Source: a bacterium (GTDB lineage Bacteria > Patescibacteriota > Saccharimonadia > CAILAD01 > BJGX01). Taken from it: a stretch of DNA of 54,825 bases. Position numbers and translations under genes: made by a program. Location of the stretch: positions 1 to 54,825 of the forward strand of contig JAKOQC010000453.1 in the NCBI GenBank assembly GCA_029778565.1, given 5' to 3'. Shown here piece after piece: positions 1,633-18,330 of the stretch; positions within the stretch are counted from its first letter, which is position 1, and each line of letters begins with the position of its first letter. A model generated the notes under the pieces. The model had not been told where the DNA came from, ran no database searches, and was given only the letters and a program-made list of their open reading frames with translations.

Positions 1633-2367
1633 CTAAAACCGCAAATACCGAAATAACTTATCTATATAATCTTGGCGACTCTCGGTCTTAGGCAGCATTT
1701 GCCCTAATGTTTGCTCTACTTGGTCTATCTCGTCAACTTTTGGTGGCAAACTAACTAACGTACCAAAGCGTTTATTTGGCACCAGCTCGAGCAATGGTCT
1801 ACCATAATCTGAAATTTCATAATAACTACTAAAATCATCAAAAAGATACTTTTTATCTCCTACCATTACGCCATAGTTACTAATGTGATACTCGAGCACC
1901 CTTGGTGGTCTATTAGAGTACATCACCAGTACTATACCCATAAGTGCAAACAGCCCTACCGTAATATATTGACGCGTTAGTATAGCTAAGCCAATAAGCA
2001 CAGCAAAAAACAACACAATGCCTACGTACCATCCTGCTGGCTTATGTGTCTGTACAAACTCTGGCGCTTGCCAGCTAAGTAAGATTTGCTCGGGAACATT
2101 TGGCTTTGGAGTAGCTTCATTAGTGGTTTCGGGTTTTTTATTGCCACCAAAAAGTAGAGCAAGTGGGTTACGTTTTTTTACCGGTGCCGTATCTGCTGCT
2201 AAAGCTGCTGGCTTATCTTCGGCACGTTTACCAACCAACTCTACCCCATCATGAAGCGGTGGTGCAGCTGGTGTATCTATATGAGGCTGATCGGTAGCTT
2301 TTTCGAAGGGGTTGGGCGCTGGGCGAAATCCACTACCTGGAGATTGATTGTCTTGGGGGTTATCCAT
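1633..2367 (-). CDS. Conserved hypothetical membrane protein, two TM segments, disordered N-terminus
   Basis: ORF with hydrophobic WYVGIVLFFAVLIGLAI..VGLFALMGIVLVMY. Confidence 0.75.
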   Translation of the reverse strand: MDNPQDNQSPGSGFRPAPNPFEKATDQPHIDTPAAPPLHDGVELVGKRAEDKPAALAADTAPVKKRNPLALLFGGNKKPETTNEATPKPNVPEQILLSWQAPEFVQTHKPAGWYVGIVLFFAVLIGLAILTRQYITVGLFALMGIVLVMYSNRPPRVLEYHISNYGVMVGDKKYLFDDFSSYYEISDYGRPLLELVPNKRFGTLVSLPPKVDEIDQVEQTLGQMLPKTESRQDYIDKLFRYLRF

Positions 2368-2385
2368 AGACCTTATTATACAACA

Positions 2386-2787
2386 TTACGTATTTTTCTG
2401 TTTTTTTACTTTTTTAGAACTGGTTTTAAGATGGGTATTCTTATTTGTCATAAAGAAGTATTTTGTAATCACTAAAGCACAAAATGCCAAAACAGCCACC
2501 CCTATCTCGTATACGTTGGTATCTGGTTTTAATGCTTTTCTGGCCACTACAAAGGCAAGCAACTCTAAAACCGACTCAATACTATGAGTTACAAGCGAGC
2601 GGGCAACTTCAACGCCAATTGTTATTAACAGAATTGTAGAGATAAACTCATAAAATCGCTCGCTAGACCAGTGGATAGTAAAGAAGTTACCAAATTGCGA
2701 AATTGAAAAAGCGATAACTCCAAGTACAGCAATAACTGCTAATACAATTTCACAGTAATTTATTACAATTTGTAACCGTGTTTTCAT
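2386..2787 (-). CDS. Small multi-TM protein, PsiE-like
   Basis: Hydrophobic profile and IVINYCEIVLAVIAVLG...LLITIGVEVARSLV pattern. Confidence 0.6.
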   Translation of the reverse strand: MKTRLQIVINYCEIVLAVIAVLGVIAFSISQFGNFFTIHWSSERFYEFISTILLITIGVEVARSLVTHSIESVLELLAFVVARKALKPDTNVYEIGVAVLAFCALVITKYFFMTNKNTHLKTSSKKVKKQKNT

Positions 2788-2801
2788 TACTAGTGTACTG
2801 C

Positions 2802-3224
2802 CTAACTGTGTAGCTTAATATTATTTTTCTGCATAAATAATTCCAGATCTCGCTTGGTTAATTCGGTTAATTTATACTTATCCAAACCACCCAAACTAAC
2901 CCAATCAAAATCTTCGCCTTCACCTAGTTTCATATCAGTCTTTTTTAACTCAGACACCACATAGAATACATTGCGATACGTGTTTAGCTCGGTATTTAAA
3001 TAATCAGTTAGAGGTATTGCCTCCTCTTCTGTAATATCAATAGAAAGTTCTTCTTTTAGCTCGCGACAAAAACATTGTTTTGGTGTTTCTCCAGGCTCGC
3101 TCGTCCCACCAAAAAATGCCCAAACATTTGGATTAACCGCAGCGTGCTCATCTCGATGATGTAATAGCACTTCTTGTTTCTTGGGGTTATACAAAAACCC
3201 ACCGCTATAAAAAACTTCTTTCAT
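2802..3224 (-). CDS. NUDIX hydrolase
   Basis: NUDIX box GGTSEPGETPKQCFCRELKEELSIDI. Confidence 0.9.
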   Translation of the reverse strand: MKEVFYSGGFLYNPKKQEVLLHHRDEHAAVNPNVWAFFGGTSEPGETPKQCFCRELKEELSIDITEEEAIPLTDYLNTELNTYRNVFYVVSELKKTDMKLGEGEDFDWVSLGGLDKYKLTELTKRDLELFMQKNNIKLHS

Positions 3225-3298
3225 CGCCCTACCATAACAAAACTGTCATTTTTTTTCAATCCAGAAGCAAAAATCCGTGTATAACACAGAATCTTGCT

Positions 3299-3390
<92 letters not shown>

Positions 3391-3448
3391 AGGTGAATTT
3401 GGTTCTGATTATCAGAAATGTGTTCTGGATTATTCCAGTTCACATTTC

Positions 3449-3541
3449 TGGCGGAGAGGGAGAGATTCGAACTCTCGCGGGGGATTGCTCCCCCCTACCG
3501 GTTTAGCAAACCAGCCCCTTCAGCCACTTGGGTACCTCTCC
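3449..3541 (-). tRNA. tRNA-Ser(GCT)
   Basis: GGAGAGGTACCCAAGTGG...CTGGTTTGCTAAACCGG...CTCTCCGCCA. Confidence 0.93.
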
Positions 3542-3713
3542 ATATCTGGCTCTCAGGTATTTGGTACCGCCATATTGTACCTGATATCTGATGTTTTGCC
3601 AAGCTCAAAGAAGCTAAACTGTTGACTATATTATCGCACCCCATATCTATAATACCGAACATAATAAGAACATATTATTTTGTTTTGTCAATTCTTGTGA
3701 AAGGTACTTATTG

Positions 3714-4601
3714 TTACCTAATTGCTTCGAGGGTCTCTAACTCTGTGAGTCTGTTTTGATACAACTGTTTTTTCGCATTATCACCCAAAATAGAATAGTA
3801 CTGTACGAGCAATTTATTAAGTTCGATATTGGCTTTATCTAGCTCAGTTCCCTGTTCAGCTAGTTTAGCCGCCTCAGCAATGTTGCCTCGTGCTGCAGTA
3901 AGACGCGCCAATACTAAATAGTCATTACTGCCTTTACTATCTAAACTCATTAGTTTTTGCTCGGCCTGTTTGTAGACTTTTGCGTCAAGTAAAATATATG
4001 CTGCTTGCCTATCACTTGGTTGTGTAGCACCAATTAATTGGGTGGCTTCGGTACTGGTACCACCCAAAATAATACAACTCTTTAGTAACTTCTTGGCACT
4101 CTCACTACTAAGATCGCTCTTACTAGCCTGAAGAGCTTTGTTGCACCCGTCATCTATTTTGCCCAAGTTAAAATCGGCTGCTGCCTCGCCAGAAAGACCA
4201 TTAGCACTACTCTCTCCCCCATTGGCTTTTTTATAATATTGAAGTGCAAGAGGATAATTTTGGGCCTGCAAAGCTAGATTGCCCAAATAAACATAATTAG
4301 GGTTTTCTATACTGTTTTGATAAGTTTGTATGGCCTTATCTATATCTCCCCTACGTATCCAAAACTGGGCCAAAGCCTCTGTAGCAAGTGGGTCTTTACT
4401 ATCCAATAAATAGGCTTGCTGTAGATAGCTGTATTGAGCCTCGGCAGATTGCTCTGCTTTAGCATCTGCCAACAAAGAATCTACCTTATGCCAACGCCAA
4501 GCAGTAATCTCAGGCCAATGTAAGGCAATTACCAATGCGGCAACGAGAATTAATCCAGCAGCAATCCAGAAAAAGTTAAGTTGTTTTTTTGATTCTGGCA
4601 A
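3714..4601 (-). CDS. TPR-repeat membrane-anchored protein
   Basis: N-terminal TM helix followed by TPR-like repeats (PLATEALAQFWIRRGDIDKAIQTYQNSI). Confidence 0.7.
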   Translation of the reverse strand: MPESKKQLNFFWIAAGLILVAALVIALHWPEITAWRWHKVDSLLADAKAEQSAEAQYSYLQQAYLLDSKDPLATEALAQFWIRRGDIDKAIQTYQNSIENPNYVYLGNLALQAQNYPLALQYYKKANGGESSANGLSGEAAADFNLGKIDDGCNKALQASKSDLSSESAKKLLKSCIILGGTSTEATQLIGATQPSDRQAAYILLDAKVYKQAEQKLMSLDSKGSNDYLVLARLTAARGNIAEAAKLAEQGTELDKANIELNKLLVQYYSILGDNAKKQLYQNRLTELETLEAIR

Positions 4602-6948
4602 GTTTGGCCTCTAATTGGGTTATTTCGTGCTTGGTATGTTCTTCTTTAGCTCTCTCCCCTTCTACCAGATCTTTTGGTGCATTGACAACAAAGGCTTCAT
4701 TTTGCAATTTAGCTTGTATGAGCTGTAATAGATTTTGTTTTGCAGCCAATTCTTTTTGTAGCTTTGCAGCCATAACCTTATCGGCCTCTTTTTGTTTGGA
4801 TGCCAAAATATCAATTATTTGCAGCTCGAATTTCTTGGCTTCGGCTGTGGATGGCTTGTGGATAACTTTCGGCCAGTGTTCGGTTATCAGGTTAGAATTT
4901 GTCCACAACTGCTGCCAAATTGCTTCGGTAACAAATGGGGCAAAGGGGTGGAGAAGGCGCAAGACAGTATCGAGGCCGTAAGCAAGCATTGTCGGGTTAA
5001 GATCAGATTTAGAATATTCTATATATTTATCTGCCAGATCGTCCCAGAGAAGAGAGTAAACGGTTTGGCCGGCTTCAGAGTAGCGGTACGCTTCGATATT
5101 CTTTGTAACAGATGTAATTGCACTATTAAGTCTACCTACTAACCAGTGGTCAGCAGGAGTTTCGAGCTTAACATCGCCAAGCACAAAATCATCTGGAAGC
5201 TTAGCGGTAGTATAGCGCGCTACGTTCCATAACTTGTTACAAAAATTACGGTAGCCCTTTATTTTCTCAAGCGAGAGTTTGCCATCATTACCAGGAGTAA
5301 TACCAATAGAGAGGGCGAGACGCAGGGCATCGGTACCAAATTCTTTGGTAATTTCCATCGGGTCATCATAATTACCCTTACTTTTAGAGAGTTTTTGGCC
5401 ATGCTCATCTGTTACCAGACCCCAAAGATAGACGTCTCTAAACGGTACATCGCCAGTACGATACAGACTAAACATTATCATGCGAGTAACCCATTTATGT
5501 AAGATATCGCGGGCTGTTCCCATCAAGGTAGTAGGGAAGAAGGTGTCAAAATCTCCAGTAGACATTAGAGTGGCAAATGGCCATTGTCCAGAAGAGAACC
5601 AGGTATCGAAAATGTCGGTTTCGGCTCGATAATTACCTTTGCCGTAATAGCTTTCGGCCTCAGTCTCGTTTTTAGCAATAATGTAAGTATCTTTTTGAGG
5701 GTCGTTACTGGTTTTGTAATATACCGGTATACGAATACCCCACCAGTTTTGACGAGAGATACACCAGTCGTGTTCTTGGGCTAACCAATCGAGAGCAATC
5801 TTCTTAAACCGCTTAGGGTAAAAGACTACTTTTTCGCTCTCAATTGCTGCAATTACCGGTTTGTTAAGATCTTTAATGCGTAAAAACCACTGTTCAGAAA
5901 TAAGTGGCTCGATAACGGTTTTACACCGGTCGTGAATAGCCACGGCGTGGGTCAAAGGAGTTACCTTAACTAATTTACCAGCTGTTTCGAGCGCCTCAAT
6001 TACCAAACGGCGGGCTGTCTCTACCTCAAGACCAGCAAATTCCTCAGGCACATTTATCATTTTACCCTCGGTATCTATTACCGATATTTCTGGTAATTGG
6101 TGGCGCAAACCAATTTCGTAGTCATTAAAGTCATGTGCTGGTGTAACCTTTAGTGCACCACTACCAGATTTGGGGTCTACAAGATTATCGGCAATAATTG
6201 GAATTTCTCGATTAATAAGTGGAATAGTAGCAGTTTTACCTATTAAGTCTTTGTACCGTTTATCGTTTGGATTAACTGCAACAGCACTATCGGCAAAAAT
6301 GGTTTCTGGCCTAGTAGTAGCAATCTTTATCGAGCCATAGTCTATGGTGTACATAGCATCTTTACGCTCAACATGATCTAGCTCTATATCTGGAAATGCC
6401 GAGTTACAACTAGAGCACCAATTAACAATTCTGTTACCCCGGTATACATGGCCATCCTTGTGTAGCTTATCAAACGTGTCATACACAATCTCAACCACAT
6501 CTTCATCGAGAGTGTACTTTAGCTTACTGTAGTCGGCCGAAAACCCCATCGACTGGAATTGTGTGAGTATTCCACCTTTGTGCTTCTCTACAAATTCCCA
6601 AACTTCGTCGTAAAATTTCTCTTGACCGAGATCGAATCGAGACTTTCCCTGTTTTTGCAGCTCTCGCTCGTACACTACTTGGGTTTCGATACCGGCATGA
6701 TCAGTACCTGGCAACCAGAGAGCAGGGCGTCCTTGCATGCGCGCATACCTGGTAGCAATGTCTTCAACTACAAACATTAAATGCCCAGCATGTAATGAGC
6801 CGTTGGCATTTGGTGGCGGCATTATAATACTAAAAGGCTTACCTTTGGCATTTTTCTGCGGAGCAAACGAATTGGCCTTTTGCCAGAGTTTTAAAATATC
6901 CGGTTCGTATTTACCAGGTTCGTACGCTTTGGGGAGTTCTTTTTTCAT
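4576..6948 (-). CDS. valS: Valyl-tRNA synthetase (start placed at MKKELPK; ORF extends to 7035)
   Basis: PPPNANGSLHAGH, WLPGTDHAGIETQ, GQKLSKSKGN, C-terminal coiled coil. Confidence 0.95.
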   Translation of the reverse strand: MKKELPKAYEPGKYEPDILKLWQKANSFAPQKNAKGKPFSIIMPPPNANGSLHAGHLMFVVEDIATRYARMQGRPALWLPGTDHAGIETQVVYERELQKQGKSRFDLGQEKFYDEVWEFVEKHKGGILTQFQSMGFSADYSKLKYTLDEDVVEIVYDTFDKLHKDGHVYRGNRIVNWCSSCNSAFPDIELDHVERKDAMYTIDYGSIKIATTRPETIFADSAVAVNPNDKRYKDLIGKTATIPLINREIPIIADNLVDPKSGSGALKVTPAHDFNDYEIGLRHQLPEISVIDTEGKMINVPEEFAGLEVETARRLVIEALETAGKLVKVTPLTHAVAIHDRCKTVIEPLISEQWFLRIKDLNKPVIAAIESEKVVFYPKRFKKIALDWLAQEHDWCISRQNWWGIRIPVYYKTSNDPQKDTYIIAKNETEAESYYGKGNYRAETDIFDTWFSSGQWPFATLMSTGDFDTFFPTTLMGTARDILHKWVTRMIMFSLYRTGDVPFRDVYLWGLVTDEHGQKLSKSKGNYDDPMEITKEFGTDALRLALSIGITPGNDGKLSLEKIKGYRNFCNKLWNVARYTTAKLPDDFVLGDVKLETPADHWLVGRLNSAITSVTKNIEAYRYSEAGQTVYSLLWDDLADKYIEYSKSDLNPTMLAYGLDTVLRLLHPFAPFVTEAIWQQLWTNSNLITEHWPKVIHKPSTAEAKKFELQIIDILASKQKEADKVMAAKLQKELAAKQNLLQLIQAKLQNEAFVVNAPKDLVEGERAKEEHTKHEITQLEAKLARIKKTT

Positions 6949-13613: not shown

Positions 13614-13617
13614 CAAG

Positions 13618-13950
13618 TAGCACCTCTCACGTTCTGACCTAAGAGTCGCAAGGCACTCATCACGCTCCAAGCCTACCTTTCGGGCCGGAGCTCCCGCGCG
13701 CTAACCGCTCAGTACCCGCACTCGCAATGCGGCGAACACGGTCGGCTCTTAGGTCACTTTCTAGCTGGTGACACCCACCACATCCCGTCCATAGCACGTC
13801 ACCGGCGTTTCCCGGACCGACCTCTCCTCCCGCCCATGGTTGGCCGGTCTGGGAAATTCGAAAAAGGGCAGAGCACTGCACAGATACTCCTCCCTCTGTC
13901 TGTGCTCTGCACCTTTACTGCCAGCACCTAGGTTTCTAGGTGCTTTTTTA
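13618..13950 (+). ncRNA. Candidate GC-rich structured small RNA with two CUCCUCCC loops
   Basis: Helix GACCTAAGAGTCG (13636-13648)/CGGCTCTTAGGTC (13743-13755); hairpin GCTGGTGAC/GTCACCGGC; hairpin CCCGGACCG/CGGTCTGGG; hairpin GCAGAGCAC/GTGCTCTGC; own promoter and terminator; no convincing + strand ORF. Confidence 0.65.
13923..13950 (+). terminator. Rho-independent terminator
   Basis: AGCACCTAGGTTTCTAGGTGCTTTTTT. Confidence 0.85.
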
Positions 13951-14000: not shown

Positions 14001-14067
14001 CCCGTTAGAGTTTTAATGCGGGGCCCACAAATTTATATCATTTAAGTGAAGGAACCCTAACGGGATG
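14001..14067 (+). promoter_or_regulatory. Leader hairpin overlapping translation start, same design as at 12179-12242
   Basis: CCCGTTAGAGTT (14001-14012) pairs 11/12 with AACCCTAACGGG (14053-14064), ATG at 14065. Confidence 0.65.
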
Positions 14068-14931
14068 AGTGTCGCAGCCACAGAAAAAAAACTTCGTTCA
14101 TCAATTCTTGCTGTTATCTGTTATGGATCAGTATATGGTGTCGCCTATACCGATAGTCAAATCTTGCACTACATTCCAGTAAAGGCCAGTATTGTGGGGC
14201 TCCGTAATCATCTCGCCCGACTACAAAAGCGGGGGATAGTGTTGGTAGACAAACAGGGTCGCTACAAACTAAAGAGCTGCACCTACCCTTCACAAACCAC
14301 TCAAGAAAAAAACTGGCAAGAAATAGTCCGCTCGGCACAAAAACACACCCGGCTTTTACGTTCTATACCTTTTATTAAATCTATTGTAGTACTGCCCCAA
14401 AGTGACGAACGCAGTATTCGTATAGCTGTTATTGCCCTGCCAGCCCGTCTGCACCTTGCAAGACTCCTAGTAGAAAAGTTTTTTGCCTCGCGCAGCCTAG
14501 AAAACTCCCAAAAAAAACAGATTGAGGTAATAGACACTCTCTATTTTACGACTGCCGGGTTAAGATTCTTAGATGACTTTGGGTTTTCTGACCTAGATAG
14601 AACTATTTGTTTACTAAACGCCGAACCTATTTTTGGCAAAAAAGTTTGGCAAACAATGCTCGAAAAAAACGATTATCTTCGCTCGCAAAGCCCAAATTAT
14701 ATCTGGCCACGCAACCATACTGCTGTATATGCCAGCTCGATGCGCTTTTTAGACAGTTATGATGACAGAGCTTACAGAGCCTTTTTGCGTGCCATGGCAA
14801 ACAAAAAAGAATATCGTCATGGTGGGGCACTACTACGAATTCGGCCTGATGTTATTATTGCTGACCCCTACGCCGAGAAGAAAAAGCTATTAGCCCAGCG
14901 TTATGCTCAAACTCTACAAAAGATAAAGTAA
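14065..14931 (+). CDS. Nucleotidyltransferase-fold-like protein with apparently degenerate active site
   Basis: Resembles CPR nucleotidyltransferase proteins (PFIKSIVVL...LHLARLLVEKFF...LYFTTAGLRFLDD) but lacks GS-x-DxD. Confidence 0.5.
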   Translation: MSVAATEKKLRSSILAVICYGSVYGVAYTDSQILHYIPVKASIVGLRNHLARLQKRGIVLVDKQGRYKLKSCTYPSQTTQEKNWQEIVRSAQKHTRLLRSIPFIKSIVVLPQSDERSIRIAVIALPARLHLARLLVEKFFASRSLENSQKKQIEVIDTLYFTTAGLRFLDDFGFSDLDRTICLLNAEPIFGKKVWQTMLEKNDYLRSQSPNYIWPRNHTAVYASSMRFLDSYDDRAYRAFLRAMANKKEYRHGGALLRIRPDVIIADPYAEKKKLLAQRYAQTLQKIK

Positions 14932-14961: not shown

Positions 14962-14990
14962 TTGACAAGTATATATGGGTGTGCTAGAAT
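14962..14990 (+). promoter_or_regulatory. Consensus sigma70 promoter TTGACA-17-TAGAAT
   Basis: TTGACA 14962-14967; TAGAAT 14985-14990. Confidence 0.8.
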
Positions 14991-14996
14991 ACTTGT

Positions 14997-15769
14997 TATC
15001 GCTTCGGGAGACCGAAGAGTGCAGCTTGACGAAGTAAAGTCTAAAGTCTTGGGACCGGCCACGTGCCACGGCAAGTGCGAAGTCTAAATGCCATGCCGAG
15101 CAGTAGTTAGCTATTGCTCGGCGGTTCGGCAGTCGTCGCCAGACTCAAGTGTGGCGGTGGCGGCCAGGTAACCAATCCTGGCGGCCACCGCCCTCGTCCC
15201 ATCCACCCACGACACAGATAAGATGTGAAGGAGGTGATTCCGCCGGACTGTTCAAGCCCCTGGCCGCAAGGTTGAGGGGTACGGGGTAAACCCGCAGCGC
15301 ACACGGATGCACACAGAACCGACCCGCCGGCTTCGAGCCGGCTTCGAGGAGATACAGCCAGGAGCGGGGGAGCAATGATCGGTTTTCTCACCAGGTAGCC
15401 TAGCTACTTAGCAGTTCTGACTCGCAGATTTCAGGGCAGAAGCCCTGGTCTCGAGCAGATAAGTAGCCGGGCACCCCTCATGGGGATGAGCTGAAACAAC
15501 GTGCTGGGAACACACAAAGGTAGAGGCCGGTGTGCGGACTTTGGAGGATGTTGGGCGATAAATCGTAACGCACCGACCACCAGAATCGACACAACGCCCA
15601 GAAAAGCCTTTGCTCAGCATTGTTACCTGATCTGTCGTCGCCGGGTGTGGCTCCCCGCCCAGGGGAGCCCACCCGGCGCGACACGACTTTTACTTCGTCG
15701 CTTTTCCAGATAGATTAATACTTAATACATCTGAAGAAGCTTACAAACACCCTATCTAGGGTGTTTTTT
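14997..15769 (+). ncRNA. Candidate large (~770 nt) structured noncoding RNA, class unrecognised
   Basis: Own promoter and terminator; closing helix 15028-15041/15685-15699; many strong hairpins (15002-15017, 15095-15122, 15153-15192, 15404-15468, 15633-15683); no plausible + strand ORF. Confidence 0.78.
15745..15769 (+). terminator. Rho-independent terminator
   Basis: AAACACCCTATCTAGGGTGTTTTTT. Confidence 0.88.
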
Positions 15770-15773
15770 GCTA

Positions 15774-15802
15774 TTGACTATATTTTCTCCTACCTTTACA
15801 CT
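15774..15802 (+). promoter_or_regulatory. groESL promoter TTGACT-17-TACACT
   Basis: Immediately upstream of CIRCE. Confidence 0.65.
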
Positions 15803-15807
15803 AAATA

Positions 15808-15834
15808 TTAGCACTCTCACTATTAGAGTGCTAA
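15808..15834 (+). promoter_or_regulatory. CIRCE operator (HrcA binding site)
   Basis: Exact TTAGCACTC-N9-GAGTGCTAA. Confidence 0.97.
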
Positions 15835-15922: not shown

Positions 15923-17829
<1,907 letters not shown>

Positions 17830-17899: not shown

Positions 17900-17928
17900 T
17901 TGACTTTTTAAATTACTTATGCTACAAT
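17900..17928 (+). promoter_or_regulatory. Sigma70 promoter TTGACT-17-TACAAT
   Basis: Motifs and spacing. Confidence 0.75.
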
Positions 17929-17974
17929 AGCGCACGAGTCTTGAAGAGTTCACGACTAGAACAAGGGAGAAACA

Positions 17975-18265
17975 TTGGCCAACATCATCGTGGTGCAGGG
18001 CCCCAGCGGTGTGGCACACGTCGCGGAGCTGGGTGAGATCGAGGAGATCTTCGATCTGCCGGCCTACCAGGCCGACCCCCGCCTGACCGTGGTCAACGAC
18101 CCGATCGAAGAGGACGCCATCTACGGCGTCGGCTTCGACCCTCACCGCCAAAGGGTGCTCGATGAGATCTCACTCGGTGGGATCTTCCCGTGTACGGTGC
18201 GTGAGCATCATCGCGAGCTCCGCACCGATGGGCACCCGGCCCGACCCACCAAGTGGCACAAGTAG
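17975..18265 (+). CDS. GC-rich orphan small protein (96 aa, TTG start)
   Basis: RBS AAGGGAGA; near-saturated GC3; own promoter and terminator. Confidence 0.75.
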   Translation: MANIIVVQGPSGVAHVAELGEIEEIFDLPAYQADPRLTVVNDPIEEDAIYGVGFDPHRQRVLDEISLGGIFPCTVREHHRELRTDGHPARPTKWHK

Positions 18266-18304
18266 CCACTTGTTGACCAAGCAGGCGAAAGACCTGCCAA
18301 ACCA

Positions 18305-18330
18305 AGCCAGCTCCAAGTGAGCTGGCTTTT
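18305..18330 (+). terminator. Rho-independent terminator
   Basis: AGCCAGCTCCAAGTGAGCTGGCTTTT. Confidence 0.85.

Follow-up and report, generated by a model that had tools for sequence, protein, structure and literature searches.

A folded noncoding RNA candidate upstream of groES shares covarying ends with orphan-gene units of the same bacterial class

Positions 14997-15769 of the window (the whole 54,825-nt stretch of DNA analysed here) hold a noncoding, GC-rich and strongly folded unit whose ends belong to a structural frame that encloses mostly single orphan protein genes in related genomes. The frame consists of a 5' terminal hairpin, a long-range closing helix and a 3' hairpin. Membership of the unit in this family, together with its noncoding nature, is very probable. 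The fuller reading, to which we give a slight preference, is that the unit encodes a noncoding RNA of about 750 nt, transcribed on its own, and that this RNA belongs to a new family of accessory transcripts with clamped ends; the clamp would stabilise the molecule, and its core would act as RNA.

The unit has a GC content of about 60% versus 42% for the whole window. It is flanked by a wHTH gene (14065-14931) and by groES-groEL (15923-17829), a phosphomannomutase gene is the other neighbour close by, and the nearest tRNAs are 5.7 kb away. An earlier reading of this DNA, made from the sequence only, had placed a TTGACA-17-TAGAAT promoter and a terminator around the RNA, and we recovered both on the + strand, on which all features of the unit given below also lie. 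The promoter is found at 14962-14990, matches 11 of 12 consensus positions, has a TG preceding the second hexamer and aligns with promoters in two relatives (G010 and G117). The intrinsic terminator, AAACACCC-TATC-TAGGGTGTTTTTT, is found at 15745-15769. Outside the RNA itself, positions 15774-15834 (+ strand) contain a separate groES promoter (15774-15802) and a CIRCE-type operator, TTAGCACTC-N9-GAGTGCTAA; therefore, the unit should be transcribed separately. In order to be a regulatory leader or thermosensor of the groES-groEL operon, the RNA would be expected directly upstream of groES, which is where it is found in two genera. However, the RNA has its own terminator, and it is not a groES leader because the promoter and operator of groES come after it. 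Moreover, the gap between the wHTH gene and groES in seven other relatives is only about 180-280 nt and has no such RNA. We therefore regard the leader explanation as scarcely credible.

Pfam gave no match for the wHTH gene of the window. More distant relatives have a nucleotidyltransferase-like YGN..(S)DID motif in this gene, and the motif has been lost from it in the window, G010, G002 and G005. The assembly of the window genome (G000) has 2.25 Mb in 633 contigs, relatives having mostly 0.4-1.2 Mb, and the bin may be mixed.

The minimum free energy of the unit is -351.5, compared to -275.6 +/- 8.1 for its dinucleotide shuffles (z -9.4). Since the opposite strand folds equally well (z -9.7), the strand was not chosen by folding energy alone; it is set by the promoter, the terminator and the G-U pairs in relatives. 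A 5' terminal hairpin, CTTCGG-gaga-CCGAAG (15002-15017), begins about 5 nt past the expected start, and relatives have hairpins of other sequence in the same place. The two closing strands named by the sequence-only reading, GACGAAGTAAAGTC at 15028-15041 and GACTTTTACTTCGTC at 15685-15699, are present and pair at 12 of 13 positions. All inner helices that it had named were likewise found both in the sequence and in the predicted fold. Inside the closing helix is a P2/P3 domain (15048-15149), in which CUUGGG (15048-15053) pairs with CUCAAG (15144-15149) and GGC-C-ACG (15057-15063) pairs with CGU-C-GCC (15134-15140). It is followed by a GC-rich hairpin at 15153-15192 (15 of 16 pairs, from sequence and fold) and by the hairpin CAGGGC-AGAA-GCCCTG at 15432-15447, and G010 and G002 likewise show an AGAA loop at the equivalent position. 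The 3' half contains a long imperfect hairpin (15520-15600), which is probably common to the G002 RNA, and a block conserved in the alignment with G010, CACAACGCCCAGAAAAGCCTTTGCTCAG (15590-15617). A further GC-rich hairpin (15633-15683) directly precedes the 3' closing strand, and G010 folds a hairpin of entirely different sequence there. The 3' frame hairpin, CTTTTCCAGAT ... ATCTGAAGAAG, with the inner stem ATTAA/TTAAT, occupies 15701-15739. The three frames of the interior contain 6, 6 and 11 stops, which is the random expectation at the same GC content, in agreement with the earlier claim that there is no plausible sense ORF. A match to the complement of the 16S 3' end inside the RNA, AAGGAGGTGAT, was taken as chance; it has no ORF after it and no counterpart in G010.

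Comparison with Rfam gave no match at the gathering score and only noise up to E = 10, so the class remains unrecognised, as had been suggested. RNase P was rejected, with no Rfam match at the unit and an RNase P gene elsewhere in the genome, as were tmRNA (none by Rfam at the unit, none by ARAGORN in the window) and HEARO (no Rfam covariance-model match). BLAST against phage and plasmid collections returned either nothing or a 28-nt Rhizobium match. GOLLD, ROOL and OLE are bacterial noncoding RNAs of large size, elaborate fold and closed architecture, and no function is known for ROOL and GOLLD (PMC12286853). The window RNA resembles them in being large, elaborate and closed, with many strong helices, and it could be imagined as an ornate RNA of this kind that self-assembles into a cage or dimer. 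The earlier suggestion of such a likeness did not hold up, however: there is no covariance-model match even at E 10, no adjoining tRNA island or phage gene, and no match in phage records. GOLLD and ROOL are marked by a phage or prophage setting, frequently with tRNA islands close by. In addition, the outer frame of the window RNA is shared with coding units, so that we consider this explanation very improbable. To our knowledge, an outer frame common to protein-coding units has not been described for GOLLD, ROOL or OLE.

Homologues of the unit were sought at the same place in relatives. In G010, which belongs to a second genus, the same order is found (wHTH gene, an RNA of about 540 nt, groES and groEL), and G010 is the only true match by DNA similarity over 61 relatives; a match in G003 was dropped as it falls inside a protein gene. 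The closing helix keeps its pairing in G010, where GACGAAG/CTTCGTC becomes GATGAAG/CTTCATC with a compensatory change from C-G to U-A, and P2/P3 (CUUGGG/CUCAAG and GGCCACG/CGUCGCC) folds as in the window. Interior blocks and the P2/P3 domain are kept between G000 and G010 despite high overall divergence. Alignment of interior sequences was mostly uninformative. G002, from a third genus, has a GC-rich noncoding unit between the wHTH gene and groES. Alignment of the 3' half of this unit to the window RNA scores 19, versus a shuffle maximum of 17.5 (0/400 shuffles), and the unit has a domain analogous to P2/P3; the frame is absent in G002. On this moderate evidence from alignment, the G002 unit is a probable homologue of the window core. 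The unit is patchy in its presence, since the interval from the wHTH match to the groES match measures only about 180-280 nt in the seven relatives mentioned above.

The frame is not confined to this locus. A covariance model of the 3' part (R2) matched G117 with 30.8 bits (E 8e-6), where the same promoter, a 5' hairpin, the closing strands TTGACAGAGTAGCA/TGCTACTCTGTCA and a 3' hairpin enclose a GC-rich protein gene. A model built from three sequences (R3) was then run over 393 genomes of the class and, together with local searches, gave the 3' frame part in 18 units, spread over 14 genomes of this class, which the sequence-only reading took to be Saccharibacteria. For 14 of the 18 units we could also place the 5' closing strand, the other four being known from the 3' part alone. 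Weak R2 or R3 matches in G157, G165, G081, G110, G256, G099, G381 and G004 were left out of the member count. Near-exact matches to the 3' pattern in the 393 genomes were attributed to chance and lie inside genes, except for the one in G359.

Covariation across relatives, which had been put forward as a check on the RNA, was found in both the closing helix and the 3' hairpin. Over the 14 units, the closing helix has on average 11.6 of 13 positions paired, compared to 9.4 +/- 0.3 with shuffled partners (0/5000). Helix positions 2-9 have changes on both sides, and in G044 all 13 positions pair, including two G-U pairs. In the 18 members, the 3' hairpin is 94.8% paired versus 75.9% +/- 1.4 after shuffling, with both-side changes at 11 of 16 pairs, in an alignment that was fitted to the model structure, that contains the three rows from which the model was built, and whose related rows inflate such tests and can exceed shuffles. 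The closing helix and 3' hairpin are beyond chance because both recur with compensatory changes in related genomes. The 5' hairpin varies freely in sequence among members, and there are hairpins at both ends. Positions 14962-15739 of the window have these family features: a sigma-70-type promoter, a 5' hairpin, the GAC.../...GTC helix and a 3' hairpin. In the latter, which reads CCA...CTGA, the CCA pairs with TG-A less strictly than in the CCA...TGG of other members.

What the frame encloses differs among members. Twelve of the 14 units enclose a single GC-rich ORF of 85-204 codons, with GC3 mostly 0.6-0.8 (surroundings about 0.4-0.6), while the window and G010 have no such ORF and are the only two of the 14 with noncoding cargo. 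The single GC-rich orphan ORF was thus treated as a variable, not a defining, feature of the family. None of the 10 scanned cargo proteins reaches the Pfam cut-off, and none of the 9 scanned against PHROG has a match. The cargo proteins of G117 and G083 are 49% identical, with changes of 0.41/0.26/0.58 at the three codon positions; judged from these changes, the two cargo genes are real coding sequences under protein selection. G045 and G388 are close relatives with a unit at the same locus, between the same neighbours. Conservation there covers about 150 nt at the promoter end and also the 3' end, and the approximately 480 nt in between cannot be aligned. The frame is therefore constant, with its cargo replaced or evolving extremely fast. 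The original description of the window unit as a large, closed, structured noncoding RNA is supported. It is one noncoding member of a cassette-like family rather than a stand-alone ornate RNA, since its closing helix is part of a frame that encloses mostly coding orphan genes in relatives.

Given these coding relatives, the window copy might be a decayed cassette, in which an orphan gene has eroded and left a non-functional GC-rich interior that persists by chance between ends that still function. Every other framed interior that we examined is indeed coding, and the G000 interior (GC 0.60) is as GC-rich as these. However, the noncoding state is common to G010, and probably to G002, and the blocks and P2/P3 domain of the interior have been conserved between G000 and G010 at high divergence. 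The two noncoding interiors also fold strongly (z -5.5 and -7.5), that of G000 having the highest folding density of the set, and no ORF remnant is recognisable in either. Decay is thus distinctly unlikely as an explanation.

The main rival to an RNA clamp is that the frame acts as DNA. On this view the unit would be a cassette that moves or can be exchanged, similar to integron cassettes or to IS200/IS605 or PATE elements; its closing strands would serve as terminal inverted repeats, its hairpins would be recombination signals in single-stranded DNA, and RNA pairing would be a by-product. The patchy presence of the units, the swapping of cargo within a constant frame and the TGACAG...CTGTCA ends common to most members all agree with this, as does the occurrence of two or more units in one region in each of G083 and G192. 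So does insertion at short intergenic hot spots such as dprA-topA. In genus g39 (L239-L258, L235 and L236), that of G045 and G388, this interval is an integration hot spot, empty or almost empty in most genomes, with prepilin-like genes in some and GC-rich cassettes in three. The GAC/GTC at the helix end and the CCA/TGG in the 3' hairpin are nearly invariant in sequence, and a DNA-level recognition site would also be expected to give such near-constant motifs. Against these points, the promoter and the 5' and 3' hairpins lie outside the inverted repeat and yet belong to the conserved unit, helix positions vary, and G-U pairs are present. The window unit has no recombinase gene, and we saw no target duplication by eye at dprA-topA. 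A transposon with terminal inverted repeats or a MITE was rejected for the same conservation outside the repeats and the same lack of a duplication. A PATE derived from IS200/IS605 would have similar hairpins at its two ends for recognition by a Y1 transposase; the units here do have hairpins at both ends, but the one on the 5' side differs freely in sequence among members. The conserved 3' columns, which read CTGTCRCTTCACCA-hairpin-TGGTGAAG, contain no attC core (GTTRRRY/RYYYAAC). Pattern scans of viral contigs for the 3' frame gave 51 chance matches and then none. We consider the recombination explanation rather unlikely on the whole, and it should be added that RNA clamp and DNA signal could both be true at once.

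Known kinds of element share some of these properties. Integron gene cassettes are similar to the framed units in having mostly orphan ORFs, foreign base composition, one gene per unit and a foldable 3' site. They differ from the framed units, which have their own promoter and a conserved element at both ends, and visual inspection of the ORF lists for the framed loci revealed no integrase gene. Phage morons and accessory autonomous transcription units are also single genes of foreign composition with their own promoter between conserved genes. However, the frame was seen in no viral contig and the cargo proteins scanned gave no PHROG match, and we know of no shared covarying end-to-end RNA frame in morons. 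As in tmRNA and other paired-end RNAs, the ends are paired over a long interior with a possible ORF inside. Unlike in tmRNA, the interior is exchangeable, and neither ARAGORN nor Rfam gave a tmRNA match. None of the known kinds compared here combines an end-to-end RNA frame that covaries with cargo, coding or noncoding, that can be exchanged. In the literature searched, which lay largely outside the subscription journals, no such RNAs or cassettes are described from these bacteria.

Returning to the RNA clamp, a 5'-end hairpin, a 10-13 bp end-to-end helix and a 3' hairpin form a constant frame holding exchangeable GC-rich cargo, which is mostly one orphan protein gene and, in the window lineage, a folded noncoding core. 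From what is generally known of bacterial RNA decay, these three elements are expected for an RNA protected from end-dependent decay. The clamp may hide both ends from 5'- and 3'-dependent RNases and may fold the cargo into one closed domain, resulting in a long-lived RNA. With noncoding cargo, the folded core itself would be the product and would act as RNA. That the clamp serves RNA stability is a tentative proposal, with somewhat less than an even chance. A more speculative variant is that these supposedly epibiotic bacteria deliver the GC-rich clamped transcripts, both coding and noncoding ones, into GC-rich host cells as RNA cargo; closed ends would keep the RNA alive in the host and the base composition would suit it. 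We give this variant hardly any weight.

The same covarying RNA clamp around unrelated orphan genes and a large noncoding RNA occurs in streamlined bacteria whose biology is largely unexplained. It offers a concrete signature by which a hidden pool of accessory genes can be searched for, and a clean example of an RNA frame that is retained as its cargo is replaced, and end-to-end RNA pairing gains a testable role.

Other structured RNAs and cassettes were observed nearby. A second GC-rich structured RNA (RNA-A) lies after the phosphomannomutase gene at 13614-13944 of the window. It is closed by the helix GACCTAAGAG/CTCTTAGGTC, contains several strong hairpins whose loops are C-rich, and has a terminator and a G010 homologue with compensatory changes. 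The RNA-A model (R1) matched no genome beyond G010 among the 61. On the minus strand of L005 (G010), positions 2734-2876 between the phosphomannomutase and wHTH genes contain a third RNA with its own promoter. Its match to the RNA-A model is weak (26.6 bits, E 0.00045), and on this basis it is probably a paralogue of RNA-A. After groEL, at positions 17900-18328 of the window, a GC-rich 96-codon orphan gene has a promoter and a terminator to itself and a 14-nt direct repeat, TTCACGACTAGAAC, on both sides (about 17951 and 18379); it looks like a cassette with a different frame. In L226 (G192), several GC-rich orphan ORFs follow one another at positions 1868-5673, where the 3' frame is matched two or three times; this looks like an array of framed units. 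L016 and L017 (G015 and G016) have GC-rich orphan genes on the wHTH side of the wHTH-groES interval behind a common leader, TTAATA.GCTATAGGTATCGAAA.TCCCGTTTCGCC, which would be another kind of framed cassette at this hot spot.
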